A stretch of DNA of 64,000 bases, taken from the NCBI RefSeq assembly GCF_001552255.1, contig NZ_BCQV01000020.1, forward strand, positions 1 to 64,000, given 5' to 3'. Origin of the DNA: Alicyclobacillus shizuokensis NBRC 103103. Its GTDB lineage: Bacteria; Bacillota; Bacilli; Alicyclobacillales; Alicyclobacillaceae. The position numbers were made by a program, and so were the translations under genes. Each line of letters opens with the position of its first letter. The first letter of the stretch is position 1. Positions 6,406 to 27,140 of the stretch are shown here, piece after piece. The notes under the pieces are model-generated. The model searched no databases. It was not told the DNA's origin and saw only the letters and a program-made list of their open reading frames with translations.

Positions 6406-7715
6406 TACAGAATACGGATGAGGTAAGGCAAGAGGGCGGCCAGGTAGATACTCACAGCGGGCGCAGTGAGGACGTGCCCTGCCAAACCGGCGACGGCCAA
6501 GCCCAGAGACACGGACAGCCAGTACGGGGCAGCCGCGGGCAGCCTGTGGACGACCCTGACCTGCCGATAGATGGCGATCCCAAGCAAGACGGTAAGCGGC
6601 AGCACCCACAGCACGAAACCAATGCCTCCGAAGCTGAACCACGCATCGTGAAAGTCCATTTCCACAAGTTTCGGGCGCTGCTCATAGTTCCCCGCAAAAC
6701 CCGCCCCAAACACCTTTTGCACGAGCGGATCGCGGGAAAAAAGGGCGAGCGCCTGCGCCAGGTAGACGTCGCGGCTGCTGTACACGAGCTCGTCCACATC
6801 CGCAACCTGGGCTATATCTCCCTCGCCCGTTGCGCCTGGGTGGACCAGCGGGTGAATCCAGGCGATGTGCGCGTGCGTATTCGCCGCCACCGGCGACCAC
6901 GGCGTGGCCCCCAGGTAGAACACCAGTGTGGCGGCATACAGCCAAGCCCGTCCCGCCTGGGGCAGGCGCCGCCGCCATTGCCGTGCGCGCACGAAACGGG
7001 CCATCGGCACCATGAGCAGCGCGGCGGCTCCGGCCAAATACGCGGTCTTGGTGCCCAGCGCGAGCAGACCGAAGCACACCAGCCAAATCGGGAACCAACG
7101 CTCCAGATTTTGCCATGTACGGGTAGACGGGGGCGCGGCCAACGCCCGGGCCAGCGCCACCGGAAAGGTGAGGGCAAGGGCGGCACTGACCTCGTTAGCC
7201 GAGAAGTACCACCCGCTCACCCCCGCTTTCCCCGGGTAGTGGTAACTGGGCAGGGCGGTGCCGGTCAGGGTGGCGGTCAACATCACGGCGCCAGTCAGCC
7301 CCGCCGCAGCAGCCACGGCCCGGCCGACGGCCGGCCAAAAGCCTGGTTGAGATTGCTGGAGAAAGGTAGCAAAGGTGAGCAGGAGCGTGGGGAAGTACCA
7401 CGCCTTGGCCGCATATGTCAGTTCCAGACGCGGCGAGAACACCGGCTTGTTGAGGTAGTTGATCACCAAATTGGCCGCGATAAATCCTACAACCAGCAGC
7501 GTGTAGGCCTGCAACAGGCGTCTCGGCCGCCGCGGCAGGCCGGCGCCCGTGAGCAGATACGCCATGCCGCCCAGGAGCACGACGACGCGCACCACGACGC
7601 CGACGGTCACAGGACCGTGCAAGGTGTACAGGCTGGCCGTGGTGGCGGCGTCCAACAGCGGCTGGACGACGAGAAACCACGGCAGAAACCGCTCCATAGC
7701 TTGGCGCAGGCCCAT
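6363..7715 (-). CDS. O-antigen ligase-like polytopic membrane protein
   Basis: This 450-residue protein has about ten to twelve hydrophobic segments and a large polar loop around residues 275-370. It contains [11 protein letters not shown] followed by a Gly-rich GAGFAGN and then [12 protein letters not shown], the layout of the Wzy_C (O-antigen ligase/polymerase) family. It may join or polymerise an undecaprenyl-linked glycan on the outer face of the membrane; no partner genes are adjacent. The chosen ATG at 7715 has AAGGAGG nine bases upstream, while the frame itself extends further upstream without support. The last ten or so residues (SSFAAKGSS) are read out of frame from the trxB relic, so the native C-terminus was probably lost by a deletion. 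Function after this change is uncertain. Confidence 0.7.
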
Positions 7716-7865
7716 CCACGCAACCTCCTTCCCGTCCTTCCGCCTGCTCCATCCTGCCCGGGGCAGGCGCCTATTTCCCGTGCGGACGGTGGCAGCGGGC
7801 CCAGATACGCAATAGGCTGAAGTACCCGGGCGCCTGGGACCTTCCGTGAAGGAGTGACGATCCGC

Positions 7866-8144
7866 ATGAAACTGCCACCGGAGTCTGGGATGACAATGGA
7901 TTCGGACCTTGCCGCTGAACCTGCATGGGAGACTCGCGGCGGATACCGTCTCGCGCCGCACGAAACCCTGGAACTGCATGAGTTGCTGGCGTTCCAAGCC
8001 AACCACCTGGCTCGTCACAAGAAGGCGGCGGCCAAAATCCACGACCCAGCTCTGTGCAAACTCTACCTGGAAGCCATTGCAGCGGGCGAACGCTGCATCT
8101 ATGAGCTGATGGACGCACTCAAGGCTCGCGCTTACATGACCTGA
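7866..8144 (+). CDS. Small CotF-like spore coat-associated protein
   Basis: This 92-residue protein has an alpha-helical core beginning ETLELHELLAFQANHL near residue 35, followed by a lysine-rich stretch and a helix ending in CIYELMDAL. This pattern is seen in short proteins encoded just upstream of CotF-type coat genes in spore formers, including the shorter partner of two-gene coat loci. The ATG at 7866 is placed 11 bases after AAGGAG; the in-frame GTG at 7854 overlaps that site and is unlikely. The next gene, 61 bases downstream on the same strand, is a frameshifted CotF-like gene, so the two probably formed one sporulation-time operon. The family assignment is moderate because the sequence is short. 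Confidence 0.55.
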   Translation: MKLPPESGMTMDSDLAAEPAWETRGGYRLAPHETLELHELLAFQANHLARHKKAAAKIHDPALCKLYLEAIAAGERCIYELMDALKARAYMT

Positions 8145-8205
8145 TCTTCACGCCGGCGGCGGGTTTTACCCCGTCTGCTGCAGAACACCGAAAGGAGAAT
8201 CGCTC

Positions 8206-8770
8206 ATGACCCATGCCGGCCAAGACCCCGTCTACGCCGGGGCCCTGTTGGGCTACACGAAGGCTTCGGTGCGCAACACGGCGGCCGCCATCACCGAAAC
8301 GGCCACGCCACAGGTGCGCCGCATGCTGATGACCCACCTGCGGAGGGCCATCCGCCTGCACGGCAAAAGTGTTTCACTATATGTACAGGCGAGGGTTGTA
8401 TCCTGCCCATCACCCAGACCGGGTCATCCAAAACGACTTCCGCAGCGCCGAGATGGCCCTGGCGATGCCGGTGATGACCGCCCACCACACCACGAAGTAC
8501 AAACCCATGTCGATGCCTGTCCACCCGCCGCTGGGCGGTCTGTGGAAAACCGGGCCGAGCATGTCGACAGGCGGGACACACGGATGGCCTATGCCCGCAA
8601 AATCGCAGTCCGCATACGCCTGGTCCACGCAGCTCTCGCACCTGGAGATGGAGTCGCCCCCCAGTGACGTGCCGTACCCGTACCACATGGAGTCGGGCGA
8701 CGGCGAGAGCCGCAGCGAGAACCCGGACGACCATCGAGACCTGCGCACAGAGACCGACGCAGACACGTAG
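8206..8770 (+). pseudogene. CotF-like spore coat gene with +1 frameshift
   Basis: The frame opening at ATG 8206, after an AAAGGAG site, reads a helical coat-like N-terminus up to RLHGK near residue 57. There, in the run GGCAAAAGTG (about 8363-8372), the frame must shift by one base to continue as VFHYMYRRGLYPAHHP, the hallmark Tyr/Pro-rich end of the CotF domain, followed by DRVIQNDFRSAEMAL. The second frame stays open to 8770 with a His/Met/Pro-rich and then acidic tail. Without a shift the protein would be 153 residues with an arginine/proline-rich nonsense tail. One extra A explains everything: a real mutation, a phase-variable tract or a sequencing error are all possible. Confidence 0.65.
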
Positions 8771-8775
8771 CAGCG

Positions 8776-9312
8776 TTACAACACGTGCTCACTATGTAAC
8801 CGGCTCCAAAACAGCTCGGCCTCCACCAGACGCTGCATCACGCTCGCCTTGCTCATGGGCACGTCGATGATCCGCCCGTCCAACAGCAGGATGCGAGTAG
8901 TGCGGCGGTTCAGCGCGTCCAGATCCGCTATGTACGTGTCGGCGATGTATCCAGTGGCCCCGTCGTTGCGCCCGCGCAGCTTGGTGCGCATCTTAAGGCA
9001 GACATGCACCAGGTTGCGCGGTGGGATGACGATGGGCATGTACAGCCACCGGTGGTTGAGGCGGCGAAACTCCATCCGCAGATCCTCCTGACTGATGCAG
9101 TGACACCCCATCACCTGCTTTCGGATCCACAGGGCGCTGCTGCCAAACACCATTTCCACCCCATCTTCGCCATACACCACCGATGCGTTGCCAAAATCCT
9201 TCAGATACACCGGCGCCCACGCAACGATGCGGGGTACCCACAGCTTCCTGTCCGGCACCTCGGCGCGCCGCAAATAGAGCGCCACCCCAGGGCCCGGAGT
9301 GTAAAACTCCAT
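8776..9312 (-). CDS. comK: ComK-like competence transcription factor
   Basis: This 178-residue protein resembles ComK. It has the central FGSS motif (about residues 56-59) followed by a basic RKQ, a Pro-rich PIVIPPRNLVHVC segment where ComK has its phosphate-contacting loop, and a C-terminal DGRIIDVPMSKASVMQRLVEA that matches the ComK pattern of Gly, Pro-x-Ser and a final helix. ComK binds AT-rich boxes as a tetramer and switches on DNA uptake genes. The sequence is divergent, so a competence role is inference. The ATG follows a GGGGTGAGGAG stretch. A good promoter with an inverted repeat across its -35 lies just upstream, and a sigma-factor-like gene diverges from it. Confidence 0.6.
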   Translation of the reverse strand: MEFYTPGPGVALYLRRAEVPDRKLWVPRIVAWAPVYLKDFGNASVVYGEDGVEMVFGSSALWIRKQVMGCHCISQEDLRMEFRRLNHRWLYMPIVIPPRNLVHVCLKMRTKLRGRNDGATGYIADTYIADLDALNRRTTRILLLDGRIIDVPMSKASVMQRLVEAELFWSRLHSEHVL

Positions 9313-9358
9313 CTCCTCACCCCCTAGAATGATCGGTAGGATTATTTTCTATTCCGAA

Positions 9359-9387
9359 AGTATATTTCTCTTGCCATTCGCTTTCAA
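9359..9387 (-). promoter_or_regulatory. Promoter of the comK-like gene
   Basis: On the minus strand TTGAAA (9387-9382) is separated by 17 bases from TATACT (9364-9359). It lies 47 bases upstream of the comK-like start codon. The -35 hexamer is covered by an inverted repeat. Confidence 0.6.
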
Positions 9388-9403
9388 TAAATTGAATTGA
9401 AAG
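9381..9403. promoter_or_regulatory. Inverted repeat over the comK-like -35 (possible operator)
   Basis: CTTTCAAT (9381-9388) and ATTGAAAG (9396-9403) form a perfect 8-base inverted repeat with a 7-base AT-rich spacer. One arm contains the -35 hexamer of the comK-like promoter. The other arm carries a TTGAAA that could serve the divergent gene. Its position suits a repressor or an autoregulatory ComK-type AT-box site. The 328-base gap (9313-9640) around it holds no other gene. Confidence 0.5.
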
Positions 9404-9609
9404 TTAAGGACTTAATCGGATTATATAAATGGAACTTATCTGTAGTAGTGAGCATATCATGTGAATTTACCCAGTCTCCACATCGAAGTGGCCCAAAACG
9501 GTGTGACTCGGACTTCCGCCACTCTTCATTGTCGAGGACTTGCGGACGGGTCCAGGTTCGCTCGCCGCGTCGCCCGTAGACTATCCTGGGCCTGCGCGCA
9601 AATCCAAGT

Positions 9610-9623
9610 GGAGACCGGTCTCC
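9610..9623. promoter_or_regulatory. 14-base perfect palindrome before the sigma-like gene
   Basis: GGAGACCGGTCTCC is a perfect palindrome that ends four bases before the ribosome binding site of the sigma-factor-like gene. It could be an operator or fold as a short RNA hairpin that affects translation. No T-run follows it, so a terminator is unlikely. Confidence 0.4.
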
Positions 9624-9640
9624 CGCAAGGAGACAAGTAG

Positions 9641-10228
9641 ATGGAGATGCAGGCGTCTAGGTATGCGGCGATTGAGACATGGATAAAAAGGGCGCAGATA
9701 GGAGACAAAGCGGCTGTGCAGGCGCTGGTGGTCCAATTTGAAGGGATGTTGAAAGCGATTTCCCGCCGCTACCGCGGTCTCTCACAGGCTGACGCCTTGC
9801 AGGAGGCTTACCTTAGCCTGCTCCTGGCCATTCGCGACTACGACGCATCCCTCGGTGTGCCGTTTGCGGCCTACGCCCAGCACAAGGTACACGGCGATGT
9901 GCGTACAGCGATGCGCCGATGGTGGACACACGATGCCCACCTGGAACCAGAGGACGAGAACCAAGACCGTCCCCGCGCATGGGAGAACCAAGCCGCCCTC
10001 TCGTCAAATAGGACGACCAACCCGTACAATCTTCCGGAGTGGCGACTGGTATTCCGCGCCGCCGGCCTCAGCGCACGGGAGCGGGTGGTCACCGAAGCTA
10101 TGGCCAGCGGCTGGCGCATCAAAGAGCTGGCACAGGCCCTCGGCGTCTCCGTTGAGACCGTGAAGACGGTGCGCAAGCGCGCTCTGCGCAAACTCCGCGA
10201 GCACTTGCGGCCGGGCGACGGACGCTAG
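9641..10228 (+). CDS. Sigma-70-family-like (region 2/region 4) regulator
   Basis: This 195-residue protein has the two-part layout of small sigma factors. Residues about 10-85 match region 2 (SQADALQEAYLSLLLAIRDYD, then FAAYAQHKVHGDVR), and residues about 140-190 match region 4, with a helix-turn-helix in IKELAQALGVSVETVKTVRKRA. A short acidic/Asn-rich linker (about 100-125) joins them. The ATG follows AAGGAGAC at eight bases. The arrangement recalls SigH/ComX-type or phage-like sigma factors rather than membrane-linked ECF sigma factors, and no anti-sigma gene is adjacent. It diverges from the comK-like gene, so a joint role in competence or another rare developmental state is possible. It converges on fabZ with a four-base gap. 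Confidence 0.7.
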   Translation: MEMQASRYAAIETWIKRAQIGDKAAVQALVVQFEGMLKAISRRYRGLSQADALQEAYLSLLLAIRDYDASLGVPFAAYAQHKVHGDVRTAMRRWWTHDAHLEPEDENQDRPRAWENQAALSSNRTTNPYNLPEWRLVFRAAGLSARERVVTEAMASGWRIKELAQALGVSVETVKTVRKRALRKLREHLRPGDGR

Positions 10229-10232
10229 CGGA

Positions 10233-10673
10233 TTAGACAATCGCGAACAGTATCGTGCCCTCGGCCACCAGGTTTCCGTCGACCAGCGCGCGGCCCTGGC
10301 CCTTGCCCATGGTGCCGCGCATTCGGTCGATGGTCAGCTCCATGTCCAGTCGGTCTCCGGGACGCACCTGGCCACGGAAACGCACGCCGTCCATGCCGGC
10401 GAACATCGGCAGCTTGCCCGCAAACTCAGGCATCGTCAGCACCGCCACCCCGCCGAGCTGAGCTATCGCCTCCATGATAAGCACGCCCGGCATGAGGCTG
10501 TATTCCGGAAAGTGCCCCTGAAATTGCGGCTCATTGGCACTCACCAGCTTGTAGCCGGCGACACGCTTACCAGGCTCCAGCTCCGTCACCCGGTCAACGA
10601 GAAAAAATGGGTAGCGGTGCGGCAAGATCTTCCGAATGTCCTCCGCATGCAACGGCAACGTCCAGTCTGACAT
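10233..10673 (-). CDS. fabZ: 3-hydroxyacyl-[acyl-carrier-protein] dehydratase FabZ
   Basis: This 146-residue hotdog-fold enzyme dehydrates (3R)-hydroxyacyl-ACP to trans-2-enoyl-ACP in fatty acid elongation. The entry motif HRYPFFLVDRV is at residues 19-29. The catalytic His54 lies in GHFPEYSLMPG and the catalytic Glu68 in IMEAIAQLGG. The length is normal for the family. The ATG at 10673 is preceded by GGAGGG; the open frame continues upstream without support. The gene stands at the end of the mbl-flhO-flhP block, as in B. subtilis, with a pgsA-like gene inserted between. Confidence 0.95.
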   Translation of the reverse strand: MSDWTLPLHAEDIRKILPHRYPFFLVDRVTELEPGKRVAGYKLVSANEPQFQGHFPEYSLMPGVLIMEAIAQLGGVAVLTMPEFAGKLPMFAGMDGVRFRGQVRPGDRLDMELTIDRMRGTMGKGQGRALVDGNLVAEGTILFAIV

Positions 10674-10861
10674 GCGTTTCCCTCCAGGTCCAAATCCTGC
10701 CGACATACGTGCGTCGGCGTGATCGAAAAATATAAGTAATCCCCGCGTCCAAAGCTGGCGCGGGGTTGACATAGGTGCACTGGCCGTCGGCGCGTCGGAC
10801 ACCAAGGCGACATGCACGGACGTGTGCACGGTGTTGGCGCAGACGGCCACTGCACCATGGT

Positions 10862-20172: not shown

Positions 20173-20550
20173 GGAAACATCCCTCATTTCCCATCAGGCG
20201 TCGTCTTCGGGTATTGTAACACGGGAAGCGGAGAGGGGCGGGGGGTGGTAAGCCAGCAAACAACCCACAGGGTGCTGGTTGGAATTCTACACCCATTGGT
20301 CTATCTCGCGACGGCAACACGGGACTCCGAACGCTTCGACCATTGACGAATCGGATAATTAGTCTATAGCATAGCCCTTTCCTTGCGCTCAACTTCGAGA
20401 GCCATAAGTAATCCCGGAATCCACCACATGGAGGGCTCCGGGATGAGGAGTACATTCTTGCGGCATGCGCACTCATTTTCTCTATTTTGCAATTTGCGAA
20501 TAGACGCTTGTTCTTTCCGGCCCAGGGTTCAGGACTACCTGCAATTGGTT
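20173..20550. other. Intergenic gap upstream of ywzB
   Basis: No open reading frame with a credible start was seen. An imperfectly spaced inverted repeat, ATCCCGGA (20411-20418) and TCCGGGAT (20437-20444), lies inside but lacks a T-run on either strand. The gap should hold the promoter for ywzB-ywmB and the end of the MFS transcript. Confidence 0.4.
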
Positions 20551-21879
20551 TTAGGCCGAGATGTCTTCAAGCTTAGTACCCGGCTTAATCCGAGGCAAAG
20601 CCAACGTCAGCCATTGTCCTACGGCGAGAACAACCGCAATGATGACCCAAGTTGCCGTCGCCGTAGTCACGGAGATGAGCAGAGTCCATAACAGGCTCCC
20701 GATGAGCAGTCCAAGTGTGAAAATAGCCCCGAGAAAGCCAACAGCCGTGCCCCGAACGCGCGTCGGGAAGCTCTCTCCCCAGTATGCATAACCAGCCCCG
20801 GACCACGTCCCATTCGTCACCTGGTAGATGACGAAATAGAGAATGAACACCAGGGAATGTTGATGCACGAAGAGAAACAACAGGTTCAAGGGAGCAGTGA
20901 GAATTCCAGTCACAATCAATACATTTCGACGGCTAAAGATCTCACCGAGAACTCCCCCTAAGACATAGAAGAGATAACCAATTCCACCCGCTACGAGCAG
21001 CATATGGGCTGCCTGCGCATCCGTCCAACCGTCGTACGTGGTCAACCAGTAGGTTATATATACGTTTGTTGCCACGTAGGATATAGAATAAAATAACCAC
21101 ACGGCAGTGAGAAGCAACAATTGCCGTCTCACATACCCCTTCTCGGCAAACAACTGGAGCCAAGTTACCTTGTTTAATTGACGGATATCAACTGGATAGA
21201 TTTCAAGTAGCCTGTCCACTTCCTCGTGCCTGCCATCCTCTAGCGCCTGTCGTACTTTCTTTATATGGAGAAATCGGTCAGATTCCTTAACCCAAATCCG
21301 CGCTATGATAACAAAAATGATCGGTATTACTCCCCACAGAAACACCGTCCTCCAACCGTACCCAATAAACTCTAGGTACACGCCAGAGGCGAGAAACACG
21401 CCAAGCGGCCACCCACCTTGAACGACAGAATATAGGAGCCCGCGATATCGTGGGTTTAATTGCTCATTCACCAATGTAACCGATATGGCTAACTCGGACA
21501 TTGCAAACCCGGAAGCCAACGCACGAACGATAGCAAGCTCCGTGTAATTATTAACGAAGTATGTTAATCCGGTAAAGACGCCGGCGAAGACCAGTGACAG
21601 TTGCCACATGCGGCGCCTTCCTATTTTATCCATTCCATAACCCACAAACATCGTGATCACAAATTCAGCCGCATATACAAAGAACCCCAACAATCCAACC
21701 AGCGTCGACGACAAGTGAAGGTCAGACGCAATATTCGGCATGGTGAGAACCAGCAAATTAAAGTCATACGAAGCCAGAGCCCAGCCGACGAGCGCTACAA
21801 TAATGAGGTACACAGTATATCCGACAGAAAGTGAATTGCGCGGCGTCACACCTGTGGACTGCACTTCCAAATTAGACAT
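20551..21879 (-). CDS. MFS transporter (sugar/organic acid type)
   Basis: This 442-residue protein has twelve predicted membrane helices. The loop after helix 2 contains GYGMDKIGRRRMW, the MFS signature G-x3-D-x2-GRR, and the halves are joined by a charged loop at about residues 205-245. It resembles proton symporters for organic acids and sugars (sialate/aromatic acid type). It is the last gene of the dtnK-like operon, 40 bases after the cyclase-family gene, so it probably imports the pathway substrate or a precursor. It is AT-richer than the kinase and PdxA-like genes of the same operon. Confidence 0.8.
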   Translation of the reverse strand: MSNLEVQSTGVTPRNSLSVGYTVYLIIVALVGWALASYDFNLLVLTMPNIASDLHLSSTLVGLLGFFVYAAEFVITMFVGYGMDKIGRRRMWQLSLVFAGVFTGLTYFVNNYTELAIVRALASGFAMSELAISVTLVNEQLNPRYRGLLYSVVQGGWPLGVFLASGVYLEFIGYGWRTVFLWGVIPIIFVIIARIWVKESDRFLHIKKVRQALEDGRHEEVDRLLEIYPVDIRQLNKVTWLQLFAEKGYVRRQLLLLTAVWLFYSISYVATNVYITYWLTTYDGWTDAQAAHMLLVAGGIGYLFYVLGGVLGEIFSRRNVLIVTGILTAPLNLLFLFVHQHSLVFILYFVIYQVTNGTWSGAGYAYWGESFPTRVRGTAVGFLGAIFTLGLLIGSLLWTLLISVTTATATWVIIAVVLAVGQWLTLALPRIKPGTKLEDISA

Positions 21880-21919
21880 GGTGACACTCCTCTCTATACA
21901 AAATTGATAAGGAAGAAAA

Positions 21920-22720
21920 TTATCGTTCCACCAACGCTATGGCGCGACCTGGGCCACCAGTTGAACCCTCTACCTTCACGGGCAAAAACATAAATGTGAA
22001 CCCGCGGGCTGGAAGTCGGCTGAGCCCCGATAGCAACTCGACATAGCGCATGCCTCGACTTAGCCCTTCTTGGTGTGCAGACGCTCCATCATGTGCCGCT
22101 CCGATGCTGGGAGCATCTATGCCAATGCATCTAACCCCCCGGTCATACAGGTAAAGTATGGTCTCGACATTCGGCGCCGGCCAACCGGGCGCTGACTTCT
22201 CAACCAACGGCTTGAATGAATACTTCGCGGCCTCCTCCCCACGCACATAGAAACGATCCCACCCGGTATAAAAGAGGACAATCTCTCCACTGATGGGGCC
22301 ATTCTCCCGCTCCCATGCTTGAATGTGCTGTACACTGATGTAGGGACTGACACCAGCCTCTGAAGCCCCATTTCCCACCTGGGTCACGTCGATGCAAACA
22401 CCAGGTCCCATCAGGTCCTCCAGGGGAACCTTGTCCCCGGATTGTGCGCCAAATTGCCCGCTCCACGGAAGTTGTGTGCAAGGATGAGGAATAAAATGGG
22501 TCGGCGCATCAAAATGGGTGCCGCAGTGCTCATCCATGATCCAAAATCGTGTCTGGTAGGGAGCTATGCTCCGTACGTAGCCATGCGGCTCGCTTACTTC
22601 CGTGTAGTAATTCCATACCTTGGCTGAGAACGGCATATGTGATGGCCAATATGACGGTAAGGACTCCGAGACGGTTACTGACAAATCCACAACACGCAAT
22701 TTGTCAAGAGATATCGCCAT
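21920..22720 (-). CDS. Cyclase-family (kynurenine formamidase-like) metal hydrolase
   Basis: This 266-residue protein carries the cyclase-family signature H-x-GTH-x-D-x-P-x-H (HCGTHFDAPTH, about residues 68-78), the Mn/Zn site of bacterial kynurenine formamidase and isatin hydrolase. A second conserved stretch, VRCIGIDAPSIG, lies near residue 195. Known members hydrolyse amide, lactam or lactone-like bonds. The ATG at 22720 follows GGAGGTG. It lies between the reductoisomerase-like gene and the MFS gene in one operon, so it may open a lactone or amide on the way to a hydroxy acid. The substrate cannot be named from sequence. Confidence 0.75.
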   Translation of the reverse strand: MAISLDKLRVVDLSVTVSESLPSYWPSHMPFSAKVWNYYTEVSEPHGYVRSIAPYQTRFWIMDEHCGTHFDAPTHFIPHPCTQLPWSGQFGAQSGDKVPLEDLMGPGVCIDVTQVGNGASEAGVSPYISVQHIQAWERENGPISGEIVLFYTGWDRFYVRGEEAAKYSFKPLVEKSAPGWPAPNVETILYLYDRGVRCIGIDAPSIGAAHDGASAHQEGLSRGMRYVELLSGLSRLPARGFTFMFLPVKVEGSTGGPGRAIALVER

Positions 22721-22764
22721 TTCACAGACACCTCCACACAAATGCTCGTTCCTGTGGGATCACC

Positions 22765-23766
22765 TTATAGGAAATCCTCTCCCAGCGCTTCTCTCAGTGC
22801 ACGTTCGTACGTAGCCATCGGATGTTCTGTCAAAAGCGCTTCTCTCATCCGATGGAATCGATTCAGCCCAGCTTGTCTTTCATCTTCCCAATTCCTTGCA
22901 AAGGCTCCGCTTTGAATTCGGTTTCTCAGAGTGTCAAAGATAAAGGAACGCAATGGGCCTGGGTCTACTCCGGGAAGGGACGTGAGTTGTCCATATTGAG
23001 ATGTCTGCGAGTGAAGCCGGATTTGTTCGAATAATCCATTTGCAGCTGCTCGATAAAAGATTTCTGCGGGCTCCTTGGACATGTACATCTCCAGCAAGAC
23101 AGCCTCGGGCGGCAGTCCTGCCTCCACCTGCACCTCGAATGCAGCCTCAAGGACCTTATAGATGAGCGGAAGTATGGCCTGCTCGGTCAGCAAATCCATC
23201 CATGTCTCCTCTTGGAAGGTCACCGCCATTGAACCCGTCCGCAGTGCTCCAATGGCCAATGCCACCGCTTTGGCAAATTCCCAGGCACGTCCGCTTGCAT
23301 CTTGATAAACATCGAGAAAAGCCGGGAAACCCTTGCCTTGAACGAATAACGAACGCACACCATCCCCAATCATCCTGGGCGCGACCATAGTGACATCGAC
23401 TGACTTATCGGGTTGAATCAAACCGTAAGAGACGTTATAGCCTGATGCAAAATTGACCACTTTCCCAGCCCGCAATTCTGGCGCTATAGCCTCCTTATAC
23501 ACCTGGGGCTGTTCCTCGTCAGGGACCAGTACGAAGATGATATCGGCACGTGCGCAGGCTTCTCGCACACTCATGACTGGGAATCCATCGCCTTCGGCAC
23601 GTTCCCAAGATGCATCCCTTATATTTCCAATTATAATGTTTTGTACTCCGGAATCCCGCATATTAAGAGATTGGGCTCTACCTTGATTGCCATAACCGAG
23701 AACGGCAATCGTCTTGTCGGCTAGCACCTCAAGCGATGCATCCTTCTCATAGAAGACCTTTCTCAT
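22765..23766 (-). CDS. Ketol-acid reductoisomerase-like protein with altered active site
   Basis: This 333-residue protein is clearly related to IlvC: a Rossmann opening GYGNQGRAQSLNMRDSG (residues 25-41), LVPDEEQPQVY, DVTMVAPR and the metal-site segment TFQEETWMDLLTEQ. Key IlvC features are changed. The catalytic His in AHGFN reads ASGYN, the PKGPGH loop reads PRMIGDG, and the second C-terminal metal Glu appears to be Ser, while the Asp/Glu in MDLLTEQ and a C-terminal Ser (HSQTSQYG) are kept. No other branched-chain amino acid gene is near. It is 1 kb downstream of pdxA2 in a sugar-acid operon, so it probably acts as a dehydrogenase or isomerase on a different substrate. ATG follows TTAGGAGG. 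Confidence 0.75.
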   Translation of the reverse strand: MRKVFYEKDASLEVLADKTIAVLGYGNQGRAQSLNMRDSGVQNIIIGNIRDASWERAEGDGFPVMSVREACARADIIFVLVPDEEQPQVYKEAIAPELRAGKVVNFASGYNVSYGLIQPDKSVDVTMVAPRMIGDGVRSLFVQGKGFPAFLDVYQDASGRAWEFAKAVALAIGALRTGSMAVTFQEETWMDLLTEQAILPLIYKVLEAAFEVQVEAGLPPEAVLLEMYMSKEPAEIFYRAAANGLFEQIRLHSQTSQYGQLTSLPGVDPGPLRSFIFDTLRNRIQSGAFARNWEDERQAGLNRFHRMREALLTEHPMATYERALREALGEDFL

Positions 23767-23832
23767 AGCAAATCAGCCTCCTAATCGTAGTGGTTCTCGA
23801 TGTATGCGATTACATCCCATAATGCTTGTGTG

Positions 23833-23870
23833 CGCCGCCCGCATCCCCTTAGCGCACACCGCGGGCGGCG
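23833..23870. repeat. GC-rich inverted repeat inside the catabolic operon
   Basis: CGCCGCCCGC (23833-23842) and GCGGGCGGCG (23861-23870) form a perfect 10-base stem with an 18-base loop between pdxA2 and the reductoisomerase-like gene. No T-run follows on the minus strand. It may stabilise or attenuate the mRNA at a point where base composition changes. Confidence 0.5.
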
Positions 23871-23892: not shown

Positions 23893-24900
23893 TCAAACCG
23901 GCCGGTAATTCGGCGCGTAGCGGATGGCGGCGCGGATGGCTTCCACCATCGAGACGGCGGACGCGAGTCCCTTGCCGGCGATGTCGAAGGCGGTGCCGTG
24001 ATCCACGCTGGTGCGCAGGGTCGGCAGGCCGAGAGTGATGGACACGGTTTTCTCGAAGTCCATCACCTTGGCGGCGATGTGCCCCTGATCGTGATACAGG
24101 GACAGCACTGCGTCATACTGGCCCTGGCGCGCAAAGTGGAAGACCGAATCCGCAGGCACCGGGCCGACAACATCCATACCCTGCGCCACCGCGCGTTCAA
24201 CGGCGGGGCGAATGGATTCGACCTCCTCCCGGCCGAGCAATCCCCCCTCCCCGGAATGGGGATTGAGTCCAGCGACCGCAAGCCGCGGTTTGGCCGTGAC
24301 CAGGCTTTCGAGGGCGCGATAGGCGCGCACGATGCCGGCGTGGACAAAATCGGTGTCCGCAATCTGGCGGCAGGCCTCAATGAGCGGCACGTGGCGAGTC
24401 AGAAAGAAGATGCGCACGTTCTGAATGAGGAACATGGTCATCTCCGACTTCACGTGCTGCAGGTCGGCAAACATTTCAGTGTGGCCGATGTAGGGCACGT
24501 TGGCGGCGCGCAGCGCCTCTTTGTTGATGGGAGCCGTGACAACCGCGTCCACCTCGCCCGCGTTCGCCAATTCCACCGCACGCTGCACGTATTCAAACGC
24601 GGCCTGCCCACACTGCGCCTGCACCTCGCCGAGCGTCAGCTTCGAGACGTCGATGTTGTCGAGATCCAGGACGTTCACCGTACCCGCCGTGTAGGAGGCG
24701 TCGGACGGACCGGACACCCGCTGCAGCGAGACCGGAATGTCCAGCCGCGATTGGATATCCTGCAGCGCCGCCAGGGAACCAATGACAAGCGGCCGCGCGT
24801 CGTCGTATAGAGTGGCGTCGGTCAACGCCTTCAGCGTGATCTCTGGGCCGATGCCGGCGGCATCGCCCATGGTGATAGCCAAAACGGGACGTTCAGACAT
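23893..24900 (-). CDS. pdxA2: PdxA2-type 4-phospho-sugar-acid dehydrogenase
   Basis: This 335-residue protein belongs to the PdxA family. The N-terminal ITMGDAAGIGPEI, the metal ligands in IGHTEMFA (about residues 136-143), NPHSGE and LYHDQGH, and the C-terminal TSVDHGTAFDIAGKG are all visible. PdxA itself oxidises 4-phosphohydroxy-L-threonine in vitamin B6 synthesis; the PdxA2 subgroup oxidises and decarboxylates 4-phospho-D-threonate or D-erythronate to DHAP. The adjacent DUF1537 kinase and DeoR regulator favour PdxA2. It starts 39 bases after the kinase gene. Confidence 0.85.
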   Translation of the reverse strand: MSERPVLAITMGDAAGIGPEITLKALTDATLYDDARPLVIGSLAALQDIQSRLDIPVSLQRVSGPSDASYTAGTVNVLDLDNIDVSKLTLGEVQAQCGQAAFEYVQRAVELANAGEVDAVVTAPINKEALRAANVPYIGHTEMFADLQHVKSEMTMFLIQNVRIFFLTRHVPLIEACRQIADTDFVHAGIVRAYRALESLVTAKPRLAVAGLNPHSGEGGLLGREEVESIRPAVERAVAQGMDVVGPVPADSVFHFARQGQYDAVLSLYHDQGHIAAKVMDFEKTVSITLGLPTLRTSVDHGTAFDIAGKGLASAVSMVEAIRAAIRYAPNYRPV

Positions 24901-24939: not shown

Positions 24940-26163
24940 TCAAGCTCCGGACAATAACACTCGGACACTGTCGTACACAGCGCTGTCAGGCCCAATCGAT
25001 CCACCCTTGGTCACGACGCGCAGGTCCCTGTGCGGACCGGAGACGATGCGACTGAGGATGCACAGCGGCCACACCTCGAGGATGGGCTCCAGCGCCTCCG
25101 CCTGGAGACGGTGCAGGACCTCGTAGGCCACCTCCCCGCCGCTGACGTACAGGCCTTGAATGGTCACCCGCTCCAGCACGGCCTCCGTCAGCACGGCCAG
25201 GGCGCGCGACACATCCACGGCCGCCCGGCCGCCGCATGGGCTGCCGTCGGTACGCACGCCGACAATGGGCTGCTGGGCGAAAGCCTGCTCCACCTGTTGG
25301 GCGATCCGCTCGAGACACGCGGGGCCCGTGTCTGGAGCGGCCAACGTGAGTGGATCGATCTGGAGAAGGCGGGTTTCGCTGTGCTCTTCCAGGTACGTGA
25401 GTTGGCGCCGGGTGGTCGGCATGAGACTGCCGGAGACGACGAAGATGCGGTTCTGCTGGGCGGCCAGCGCCGAGAAGTAGTGGACGGTGAACGGCCCTGG
25501 ATCAATCGGCAGGATAGGCACAGGCCAGGTGGCGAAGGACTGGGCCAGAGACGCGATGTCCTCGTCGCTCTCCGCGTCGCAGACAATGAGCAGACGCTGG
25601 CCGTCCGTGCCGCCGAGGCGCTGGACAAGCTGCTGAAACCCTTGCGCGGCCTCCTCGGGCGTCACACGCACAATCGGCAGGCTGGTTTGTGTGCGCAGCA
25701 GTTCCGCCAGGTTGGAAGTGGTTACAGGGGTGTATACATCGGCGCCAATTTCCGTCTCGTGCACAGGGACACCGTGCACGTACAGGCAGCCGTCACGCAC
25801 GGTGCGTCCGGAAGAGGGAAAGGCACCGACCACCACTCCGACGGCCCCCGGCGGGAGCAGCTCCAGCATCGCCTCGGCTTCCGCGCCAATCGGCCCGCGA
25901 AACGTGCTGTCGATGCGTTTTGCCACGTGAGTCTTTGCCCCCCACCGCCGCAGGACCAGGCGCATCATCGAGCGTACGCGATCCGCTGCCCTATCCGGGG
26001 GCAGCAGTCTGGTGCCTGTATTCCATATCGTCGCGGCGCCCTGTGGCGGCGGCAGCGTCTGGTCGTGACGCAGCAGGGTTTGGGCCCGCCAGCCCAGATG
26101 GCGAAACAGCACGGCCTCGGCGTTACAGCCGGTGAGGTCGTCGCCAAACACCAGGATATCCAT
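24940..26163 (-). CDS. dtnK: Four-carbon acid sugar kinase (DUF1537, DtnK/DenK-like)
   Basis: This 407-residue protein matches the DUF1537 kinases that phosphorylate D-threonate, D-erythronate or 3-oxo-tetronates at O4 with ATP. The N-terminal substrate domain begins DILVFGDDLTGCNAEAVL, with the invariant DDLTG at residues 8-12, followed by RIDSTFRGPIGAE near 82-94. The C-terminal nucleotide-binding domain has GLYVSGGEVA near residue 350. I chose ATG 26163 because GGGAGGGG precedes it. It is the first gene of a five-gene minus-strand operon and diverges from a DeoR-family regulator. D-threonate is the most likely ligand because of the PdxA2 partner, but this is inference. Confidence 0.85.
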   Translation of the reverse strand: MDILVFGDDLTGCNAEAVLFRHLGWRAQTLLRHDQTLPPPQGAATIWNTGTRLLPPDRAADRVRSMMRLVLRRWGAKTHVAKRIDSTFRGPIGAEAEAMLELLPPGAVGVVVGAFPSSGRTVRDGCLYVHGVPVHETEIGADVYTPVTTSNLAELLRTQTSLPIVRVTPEEAAQGFQQLVQRLGGTDGQRLLIVCDAESDEDIASLAQSFATWPVPILPIDPGPFTVHYFSALAAQQNRIFVVSGSLMPTTRRQLTYLEEHSETRLLQIDPLTLAAPDTGPACLERIAQQVEQAFAQQPIVGVRTDGSPCGGRAAVDVSRALAVLTEAVLERVTIQGLYVSGGEVAYEVLHRLQAEALEPILEVWPLCILSRIVSGPHRDLRVVTKGGSIGPDSAVYDSVRVLLSGA

Positions 26164-26211
26164 GCCCGTCCCCTCCCAGCGATGCGCAGTGTGTGCGCGA
26201 CCTGCAGTCAC

Positions 26212-26276
26212 AATATATTACACAAAATAACACATTGTCAATATGATAACTTCAGGAAATCACATTTTATTTCACA
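26212..26276 (-). promoter_or_regulatory. Promoter and possible DeoR operators of the dtnK operon
   Basis: On the minus strand TTGACA (26241-26236) and TATATT (26217-26212) are 18 bases apart, pointing into dtnK. Two CACA-type direct repeats flank the -35: CACA-N6-CACA at 26221-26234 in the spacer, and CACA-N8-CACA at 26261-26276 upstream. Such spaced repeats suit a DeoR-family operator. The whole stretch is strongly AT-rich. Confidence 0.55.
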
Positions 26277-26341: not shown

Positions 26342-26378
26342 GAGATTAGCACACCGGTAGAAAGAGAGGTGTTTGGGG

Positions 26379-27140
26379 ATGTTGGCCGCGCAGCGCAGAA
26401 AAGAGATCTACCACATGCTCGCGACACGCGGGCAGGTCGAATTGCAGGAGCTCGCCGCGCACTTTCAGGTGTCGATGATGACCATTCGCCGCGATCTGGA
26501 GCAGCTGGAACAGGAGGGCAAAGCGCGGCGGGTGCACGGAGGCGCCATTGTCGGGGAGCAGAAGTGGATGCCCGACAGCCTGGAGGTCAAGTCGACGGCG
26601 AACATCCAGCAGAAGCAGGCTGTCGCGCGCAAGGTGATGACCCTGCTCAAGCCCAACCGCTCCATTTTCCTGGATGCCGGCAGCACGGCGTACGAAGTCG
26701 CGAAGGAGCTGACCGCCTCGTTTCTGGAACCGCTGACCGTCTGTACGCCAGATCTGCAGATTGCCCTGCTCCTGTCCCAAACCCCGCGCTTTCAGGTGTA
26801 CGCCTGTGGCGGACTTGTGGACTCGGCCACCGCCAGCTTCGGCGGCGCCTTCGCCACGCGGATGATCCGCTCGCTCCACGCGGACCTGGCGCTCATCGGC
26901 TGCGACGGGTTGACCCTCAAGGACGGAGCGATGAGCGCCCGCGTGGAGCAGGTGTCGGTCAAGCAGGCGATGATGGAGCGCAGCCTGCAGGTGGCGCTGA
27001 TGACCGACAGCAGCAAGCTCGGCCGTGTCTCGTTTGCCACCATTGCCCCCCTGCACGCTTTCGACTACGCGGTGATGGACGACGGCGTCGATGAGACCCT
27101 GTCCGAGGGGCTGAAGAAATCAGGCGTCCAGGTGGTATGA
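26379..27140 (+). CDS. DeoR-family transcriptional regulator of the sugar-acid operon
   Basis: This 253-residue protein has the DeoR N-terminal winged helix (AAQRRKEIYHMLATRG, then the recognition region VSMMTIRRDLEQLEQEGKARRVHGGA) and the C-terminal sugar-phosphate sensor domain, with LDAGSTAYEVAKEL and LIGCDGLTLKDGAMS. DeoR regulators usually respond to a phosphorylated sugar intermediate, here perhaps a 4-phospho-sugar acid or DHAP. ATG 26379 follows GAGAGGT. It diverges from dtnK across a 215-base AT-rich gap and ends one base before the nuoN stop codon on the other strand. Confidence 0.9.
   Translation: MLAAQRRKEIYHMLATRGQVELQELAAHFQVSMMTIRRDLEQLEQEGKARRVHGGAIVGEQKWMPDSLEVKSTANIQQKQAVARKVMTLLKPNRSIFLDAGSTAYEVAKELTASFLEPLTVCTPDLQIALLLSQTPRFQVYACGGLVDSATASFGGAFATRMIRSLHADLALIGCDGLTLKDGAMSARVEQVSVKQAMMERSLQVALMTDSSKLGRVSFATIAPLHAFDYAVMDDGVDETLSEGLKKSGVQVV

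Follow-up and report, generated by a model that had tools for sequence, protein, structure and literature searches.

A ketol-acid reductoisomerase-fold protein in an acid-sugar operon of Alicyclobacillus shizuokensis: probably a working catabolic enzyme, not a decayed IlvC

Organisation of the locus

The window, by which we mean the whole 64,000-nucleotide stretch of Alicyclobacillus shizuokensis NBRC 103103 DNA that was analysed, carries on its minus strand an operon in the order DUF1537 kinase, PdxA-family dehydrogenase, ketol-acid reductoisomerase (KARI)-like gene, PF04199 'cyclase' and MFS transporter, with the gene of a DeoR-family regulator diverging from it. The KARI-like gene (22765-23766, minus strand) is a single open frame that fills this interval exactly. 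Its ATG lies at 23766, preceded by a strong ribosome-binding site (AGGAGG, 10 nt 5' of the ATG), and its product of 333 residues, P0001, is matched along the chain by the Pfam domains KARI_N (9.8e-61) and KARI_C (4.2e-23). Both curated cut-offs are passed in the one chain (PF07991, 204.6 against 20.6 bits; PF01450, 82.7 against 29.1 bits); judged from these matches P0001 is a member of the KARI fold family, in agreement with the IlvC scaffold noted in a preliminary description of this DNA. Among the models for IlvC itself, P0001 passes TIGR00465 (248.7 against 226.15 bits) and stays below the cut-offs of NF004017 (285.7 against 336 bits) and NF009940 (215.8 against 406 bits).

The kinase gene (24940-26211, minus strand; PF07005/PF17042) and the pdxA gene (23893-24900, minus strand; PF04166, 3.1e-99) follow one another in a single operon, as they do in the DtnK-PdxA2 acid-sugar pathway. 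The dehydrogenase is a PdxA-family 4-phosphate dehydrogenase of the acid-sugar, PdxA2-like type (NF002992, 478.8 bits against a cut-off of 470). Unlike the kinase of that pathway, the window kinase lies far under the cut-off for D-threonate kinase, its nearest NCBIfam model (NF047819, 196.7 of 450 bits), and it matches the OiaK model NF042436 weakly and partially (2.5e-09). The DtnK-PdxA2 pathway as described is not known to include KARI-like, cyclase or MFS genes. The 'cyclase' (21920-22741, minus strand) belongs to a family of metal-dependent hydrolases (PF04199, 1.1e-31), carries a HCGTHFDAPTHF motif and is possibly an amide or lactone hydrolase; a Rubrobacter protein 59.5% identical to it is encoded among UxaA, lactate-racemase-domain and sugar dehydrogenase genes. 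The MFS transporter (20551-21879, minus strand; PF07690) scores 119.3 bits with TIGR00895, under the cut-off, and its nearest models are aromatic-acid/H+ and sialate symporters. The divergent regulator gene (26373-27140, plus strand) matches PF00455 and PF08220. A promoter-like sequence, TTGACA-18-TATATT, is found at 26241-26212, one of five such sites in a scan for which 4.0 +/- 1.8 are expected. Since this site ends at 26212, and the kinase of a more distant species of the genus (G001) begins near MxILVFGDD, translation of the window kinase probably starts at ATG 26163 rather than at GTG 26211.

The KARI-like, cyclase and MFS genes lie in a low-GC stretch (20249-23833), delimited by blastn junctions, GC content and sliding GC; the GC contents of the three genes are 0.508, 0.543 and 0.494, against 0.611 for the window. 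In a sister genome (G002), whose flanking DNA is 91-92% identical, the 3,585 bp of this stretch are replaced by 1,425 bp that encode a different MFS protein, whose nearest model, under its cut-off, is a D-galactonate transporter. The operon of G001 consists of kinase, pdxA and a transporter that starts like that of G002, without a KARI-like gene. The low-GC stretch is present in one of the three genus genomes examined, and because the operons of the other two lack the KARI-like gene, the state in the window is probably derived. Another genus of the family (G008) has the order kinase-pdxA-cyclase-MFS, also without a KARI-like gene, and its cyclase and MFS proteins are 63% and 80% identical to those of the window. 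Judged from these three operons, the KARI-like gene is an add-on to a pathway found elsewhere without it.

The pdxA-side junction of the 3.6-kb stretch falls in an inverted-repeat arm (GTGTGCGC/GCGCACAC, window 23828-23860). At C51 (locus L137, 3813-6182) the same genome carries another DUF1537 kinase and PdxA, with a permease-like gene after them. Identity to this pair is 29% for the window kinase and 47% for the window PdxA, which makes different substrates of the two operons probable.

Active-site residues

Residues were compared in an alignment of 16 rows from the clade of P0001 (P0001 included) with 62 canonical rows, using the E. coli KARI numbering and residue roles (His-132, Lys-155, E213, D217, E221, E389, E393 and Ser414). 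The canonical counts exclude L119, which duplicates the window. P0001 reads FASGYN where canonical enzymes have FAHGFN, and APRMIGDG where they have APKGPGH; the ASGYN sequence, with His changed to Ser, and the PRMIGDG loop pointed out earlier are both there. The position of His-132 is Ser in 14 of the 16 clade rows and His in two, those of Halomarina (L046) and Haladaptatus DYSN1 (L048), against His in 62 of 62 canonical rows. At the position of Lys-155 every clade row has Arg and every canonical row Lys (16/16 and 62/62). P0001 carries Ser108 and Arg131 at these two positions.

In the sequence alignment the metal ligands E187, D191, E195, E226 and E232 are present in all 16 clade rows and their partners in all 62 canonical rows. 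The spacing from E226 to E232 is six instead of four, owing to a two-residue insertion with Ser230, and a profile-profile alignment gives the same gap. The preliminary description had one metal Glu replaced by Ser; this was not borne out, since Ser230 sits in the insertion and all five ligands are kept. Loss of a metal ligand was rejected as an artefact of ungapped alignment; the insertion displaces the last ligand. Ser253, the counterpart of E. coli Ser414, is conserved in 16 of 16 clade rows. On this alignment the active-site differences of P0001 amount to two residues, one of which, Lys to Arg, is conservative.

A further position, in the cofactor loop, is Asp in every clade row; canonical rows have Gly in 49 of 62 cases and Asp in 5. 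The beta2-alphaB cofactor loop is described as determining whether KARIs prefer NADH or NADPH (PMC5940873). Of the earlier proposal of a simple NADPH oxidoreductase, the NADPH part is made doubtful by this Asp.

A clade shared with the Sulfolobus solfataricus enzyme

The best match of P0001 among PDB sequences is 6jcv (1.1e-82), the S. solfataricus 'putative ketol-acid reductoisomerase 2' (Sso-KARI), which is also its best Foldseek match, at 44% identity. A maximum-likelihood tree of 49 rows splits 16 clade rows from 33 canonical ones with a support of 100/100 and in 100% of 200 bootstrap trees. The clade rows are those of the window, nine Oscillospiraceae-type loci (L006-L014, among them L013, named Candidatus Heteroruminococcus), four haloarchaea, one Sulfitobacter and Sso-KARI; several branches inside the clade are long, and the branching order is unsure. 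The family tree against true IlvC that had been proposed as a check thus places the clade of P0001 outside the canonical rows (100/100).

Eleven residues are common to all 16 rows, P0001 and Sso-KARI included: N27, R30, D51, Y110, R131, M132, E226, S230, E232, H252 and S253. P0001 has all 11 signature residues of the 15 other rows, and the corresponding motifs are GYGNQGR, the cofactor-loop Asp, GYN, APRM, ExxxSxE and HS. For eight full-length Oscillospiraceae-type genes, dN/dS was computed in 6 of the 28 possible pairs and is 0.045-0.155 in these six. At the level of sequence, the substitutions of P0001 are a clade signature and not decay, and a decayed pseudogene was rejected on the strength of the intact frame, the clade-wide signature and the purifying selection in relatives.

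Sso-KARI (6jcv, 6jcz, 6jd1, 6jd2) shows the signature of P0001, in the form FASGYN, APRMVG and LLExYxSxE. It differs in being just 44% identical, in sitting on a long branch and in having been named and studied as a KARI. There are 17 PDB entries for it, and titles among them name Mg2+, NADPH plus CPD, or NADH plus CPD as bound; CPD is presumably a KARI ligand. In KARI the His and the Lys matter, yet Sso-KARI reportedly works without that His. The enzyme is reportedly active and bispecific, and is said to reduce acetolactate. If it does, the substitutions alone leave KARI chemistry in place, and a different role for P0001 has to be argued from context and not from residues. The description of P0001 as a homologue that has lost key catalytic residues cannot be upheld: the changes are common to clade members in Bacillota, haloarchaea, Sulfitobacter and Sulfolobus, selection is purifying where it was measured, and the S. 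solfataricus member with identical residues has been solved with Mg2+, NADPH or NADH, and CPD.

A first structure model of P0001, from 10 sequences, was poor (pLDDT 62.7). A second, built on 13 sequences, has a pLDDT of 76.8 with an unreliable C-terminal half (below 50 at residues 237-266; rmsd 18-19 A and TM about 0.66 in Foldseek); the comparison with KARIs therefore covers about residues 2-237, with Z up to 35, and the metal ligands are assigned by sequence. The same KARI fold is found in BurG (PDB 7pcc, 7pce, 7pco; Z 32), where it has been recruited outside amino-acid synthesis; by its PDB titles BurG acts in cyclopropanol-ring formation, which sets it apart from P0001.

Canonical IlvC in the same genome and the neighbourhoods of relatives

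The genome has its own canonical IlvC, at C26:11282-12256, in an ilv locus with acetolactate synthase (IlvB, 9053-10714) and IlvD (7205-8824); an IlvN-like frame between them was read by eye. With canonical class I enzymes, represented by this IlvC (41% identical) and by the Alicyclobacillus structure 4tsk, P0001 has in common full-length homology, the fold of residues 2-237, the metal ligands and the equivalent of Ser414. It departs from them in the changes of His to Ser and Lys to Arg, the two extra residues that separate the final pair of metal Glu, the cofactor-loop Asp, GYGNQGR instead of GYGSQGH, and a place in an acid-sugar operon instead of the ilv locus.

Acid-sugar genes recur around clade members in haloarchaea. 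Of six haloarchaeal plasmids, four encode a four-carbon acid sugar kinase within 25 kb of the KARI-like gene and three carry pdxA there: Haladaptatus DYSN1, QDMS2 and YSMS36 have both, Halomarina the kinase alone. In all four kinase-positive plasmids the gene next upstream, on the same strand and 56-60 bp away, encodes a mandelate-racemase-family dehydratase. These four amount to about two independent cases, because the three Haladaptatus plasmids agree in gene order and in several protein accessions. The plasmids of H. halobius and H. salinisoli have no annotated kinase or pdxA gene up to about 24 kb away, in gene tables that are incomplete; that of H. halobius offers just a single Gfo/Idh/MocA oxidoreductase gene and one of hydantoinase type. 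The haloarchaeal kinases are 26-27% identical to that of the window and the DYSN1 PdxA 44%, values too low for an association inherited as a single recent block.

The Oscillospiraceae-type loci have a different company. A FadR-type regulator gene is directly upstream in all nine, a methionine-gamma-lyase-like gene is present in seven, a divergent LarA gene in six and both UxaA parts in five; an adjacent glycerate kinase (L009) and a cyclase occur in one of nine each. One of these loci (L008) is a 3.3-kb contig and another (L006) is cut, and neighbour domains were checked in L009 and L007 only. The genes for an NhaC-like antiporter, a methionine-gamma-lyase-like enzyme, a split UxaA-type dehydratase, a LarA racemase and a GntR regulator form a conserved cluster in L009-L012 and L014 that diverges from the FadR and KARI-like genes. 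A DUF1537 protein is encoded in only three of the nine genomes. In three of them there is a second KARI gene, in every case less than 0.6 kb from acetolactate synthase and with the variant elsewhere; the one whose residues were read (L090) is canonical. Four of the nine have the variant but lack both a second KARI and an acetolactate synthase over the cut-off. The variant is the sole KARI beside acetolactate synthase and IlvD in G356, and beside acetolactate synthase in G363; IlvD is over the cut-off in seven of the nine genomes and is absent from G363. Such absences weigh little, because at least six of the nine records are MAG-titled or come from binned assemblies.

The Sulfitobacter gene lies near those of a TRAP transporter, a GntR regulator and an aldehyde dehydrogenase, with a glycerate kinase about 4 kb off; branched-chain amino acid transporter genes lie 7-10 kb away in a separate gene group. 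The glycerate kinases of L009 and Sulfitobacter match different models. A search confined to IlvD, IlvB and IlvA homologues (E <= 1e-10) returned none in 16 clade-member stretches or in the window operon stretch.

Proposed role and alternatives

P0001 belongs to the KARI fold family and, by its residues and its place in the tree, is not a canonical IlvC. It is probably a working catabolic enzyme and not a decayed copy: the rare branch on which it stands has a conserved active site of its own, and its members often lie among genes of sugar-acid breakdown, in bacteria and in archaea. The acid-sugar operon, the separate canonical IlvC in the ilv locus and the position of the clade outside the canonical rows make it likely that the role of P0001 lies outside the synthesis of branched-chain amino acids. 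The earlier view that the protein probably makes no branched-chain precursors gains from these same three observations; the reason then given for it, a loss of residues, is unsupported. We give an even chance to the more precise reading that P0001, as a member of the Sso-KARI-type clade, is a functional oxidoreductase with the KARI fold that depends on Mg2+ and NAD(P)H and acts in acid-sugar catabolism. The context suggests 2-oxo or 3-oxo sugar acids as the substrate class, and the sugar acids put forward earlier as compounds to assay fit the acid-sugar operon.

In KARI two Mg2+ hold the substrate, a 2-hydroxy-3-oxo or 2-oxo-3-hydroxy acid, and reduction turns it into a 2,3-dihydroxy acid. PdxA2 oxidises and decarboxylates a phosphorylated acid to DHAP. 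In the known acid-sugar route the four-carbon acid is described as being phosphorylated by the DUF1537 kinase (PMC10971088), and oxo-tetronate variants of this route are described as well (PMC12540250). KARI chemistry and the DUF1537/PdxA route fit together most simply if P0001 converts an oxo sugar acid into a dihydroxy acid on which the kinase can act, or the reverse. Any rearrangement of carbon or hydrogen ahead of this step would depend on what the missing His and the Arg contribute. The MFS protein would import the sugar acid or a derivative, which the PF04199 protein would open if it were a lactone or amide. Two Mg2+ in P0001 would hold the 2-oxo-3-hydroxy or 2-hydroxy-3-oxo form of the acid, and the enzyme would reduce C2 with NADH or NADPH, with or without a prior 1,2-shift, to give the 2,3-dihydroxy acid; alternatively, it could run the same step oxidatively. 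The kinase would then phosphorylate the product at O4, and PdxA would oxidise C3 and decarboxylate to a triose phosphate. P0001 would thereby widen the intake of a pathway that is present without it in the sister genomes. Some caution is called for: the kinase-pdxA operon persists without the KARI gene in the sisters, and P0001 may act elsewhere. The neighbouring genes also vary by lineage, six of nine Oscillospiraceae-type genomes having no DUF1537 gene and two of six haloarchaeal plasmids no kinase or pdxA.

It is unlikely that P0001 is an ordinary second ketol-acid reductoisomerase which turns over acetolactate for valine and isoleucine and has come to lie in an acid-sugar operon by accident. 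Such an enzyme would be expected to pass TIGR00465 and to keep all the metal ligands, as P0001 does; Sso-KARI, with the identical signature, was solved with the presumed KARI ligand CPD and is said to act on acetolactate, and G356 combines acetolactate synthase and IlvD with the variant as its only KARI. Against this, a canonical IlvC already adjoins IlvB and IlvD in the same genome, all three second KARIs of the Oscillospiraceae-type genomes sit beside acetolactate synthase with the variant elsewhere, and the clade-member stretches are free of IlvD, IlvB and IlvA homologues. A passenger gene without present function, brought in with the cyclase and the transporter, would account for the low-GC stretch and its presence in one of three genus genomes; the intact frame of 333 residues, the strong ribosome-binding site, the 11 signature residues in common with 15 other rows and the purifying selection in relatives make this very improbable.

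Two further alternatives leave P0001 in sugar-acid metabolism and change its reaction. A KARI running in reverse would take a sugar acid, branched or linear, oxidise its C2 with NAD+ and shift the substituent, to give a 2-hydroxy-3-oxo acid for the DUF1537 kinase. This is KARI chemistry reversed, and oxidoisomerase chemistry of such a kind is known from ApnO, which acts on D-apionate upstream of a DUF1537 kinase by oxidation plus rearrangement of a sugar acid; ApnO probably belongs to another protein family than P0001. The DUF1537 kinases include the 3-oxo-isoapionate kinase OiaK, whose model the window kinase matches weakly and in part, and the cofactor-loop Asp of all 16 rows fits an NAD-type cofactor. 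We nevertheless regard an oxidoisomerase as doubtful, for the partner PdxA requires an oxidisable C3-OH, the operon has no aldolase-type decarboxylase, and the kinase is nearest to D-threonate kinase and not to OiaK. Equally improbable in our judgement is a pure reductase without an isomerase step (the His being gone and the Lys changed to Arg), converting hydroxypyruvate or tartronate semialdehyde to glycerate, or 2-oxo-tetronate to threonate or erythronate. The glycerate kinase genes, one adjoining the KARI-like gene in L009 and one near it in Sulfitobacter, speak for such an enzyme, as do the LarA-type racemases beside six of nine Oscillospiraceae-type loci, a type described as acting on glycerate too (PMC11770544), and the description of KARIs as promiscuous reductases (PMC4353338). 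Such a kinase is adjacent in just one of nine Oscillospiraceae-type loci, however, and the window operon has none. The acetolactate activity attributed to Sso-KARI would, moreover, require the isomerase step.

A broader and tentative reading, on balance unlikely, is that the entire Sso-KARI-type clade, although annotated as IlvC, is a catabolic family that applies the KARI rearrangement to sugar acids. Its members would be oxidoisomerases or isomeroreductases acting on 2,3-dihydroxy/2-hydroxy-3-oxo acids, and would supply pathways with a DUF1537 kinase, UxaA or an enolase-superfamily enzyme, in archaea as well as in bacteria; the S. solfataricus structures would then depict such an enzyme and not one of amino-acid synthesis. 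Returning to P0001, a sugar-acid substrate, if true, would mean a new reaction for a textbook fold and a new entry step for the DUF1537/PdxA route, and would call for a re-reading of the 17 Sso-KARI entries in the PDB.

Distribution and annotation

The clade looks rare in sequence collections. In 299 genomes of the phylum, that of the window included, only the latter exceeded 338 bits with the clade profile A1; in calibration, 12 A1 rows left out in turn scored 383-594 bits and Sso-KARI 364. The best 29 other matches in the phylum sample are all canonical by their residues. Among 60 relatives of the window genome, 51 have one match each at E <= 1e-30, and the 29 matches whose residues were read, a set without G001 and G002, are all canonical. 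No second clade member was seen in these 60 relatives or in the 299 phylum genomes. Among 200 genomes of the family of G357, the source of L007, G357 alone had a match at E <= 1e-115. A single scan of a species-genome collection, with P0001 alone as the query, yielded nine relatives, so the clade is under-sampled, chiefly in Archaea and Pseudomonadota. A viral origin was rejected: profile A1 gave 35 pattern matches to viral contigs and no relatives. Plasmid searches with the window kinase and MFS protein gave no match at thresholds of 1e-40 and 1e-60. Among the literature matches listed, as far as their titles and abstract openings go, none concerned a KARI homologue in acid-sugar catabolism.

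In public records plasmid-borne genes of the clade are labelled 'ketol-acid reductoisomerase', with valine/isoleucine terms. Given this naming and the pass in TIGR00465, pathway predictions from such genes may err, for instance where the variant is the sole KARI. On a plasmid of Sulfitobacter sp. DSM 110093 (NZ_CP085168.1, 20435-21286) there is a 99.3% identical copy of the Sulfitobacter KARI-like gene, annotated 'hypothetical protein', which covers residues 44-327 only and is either a truncated copy or one with another start.
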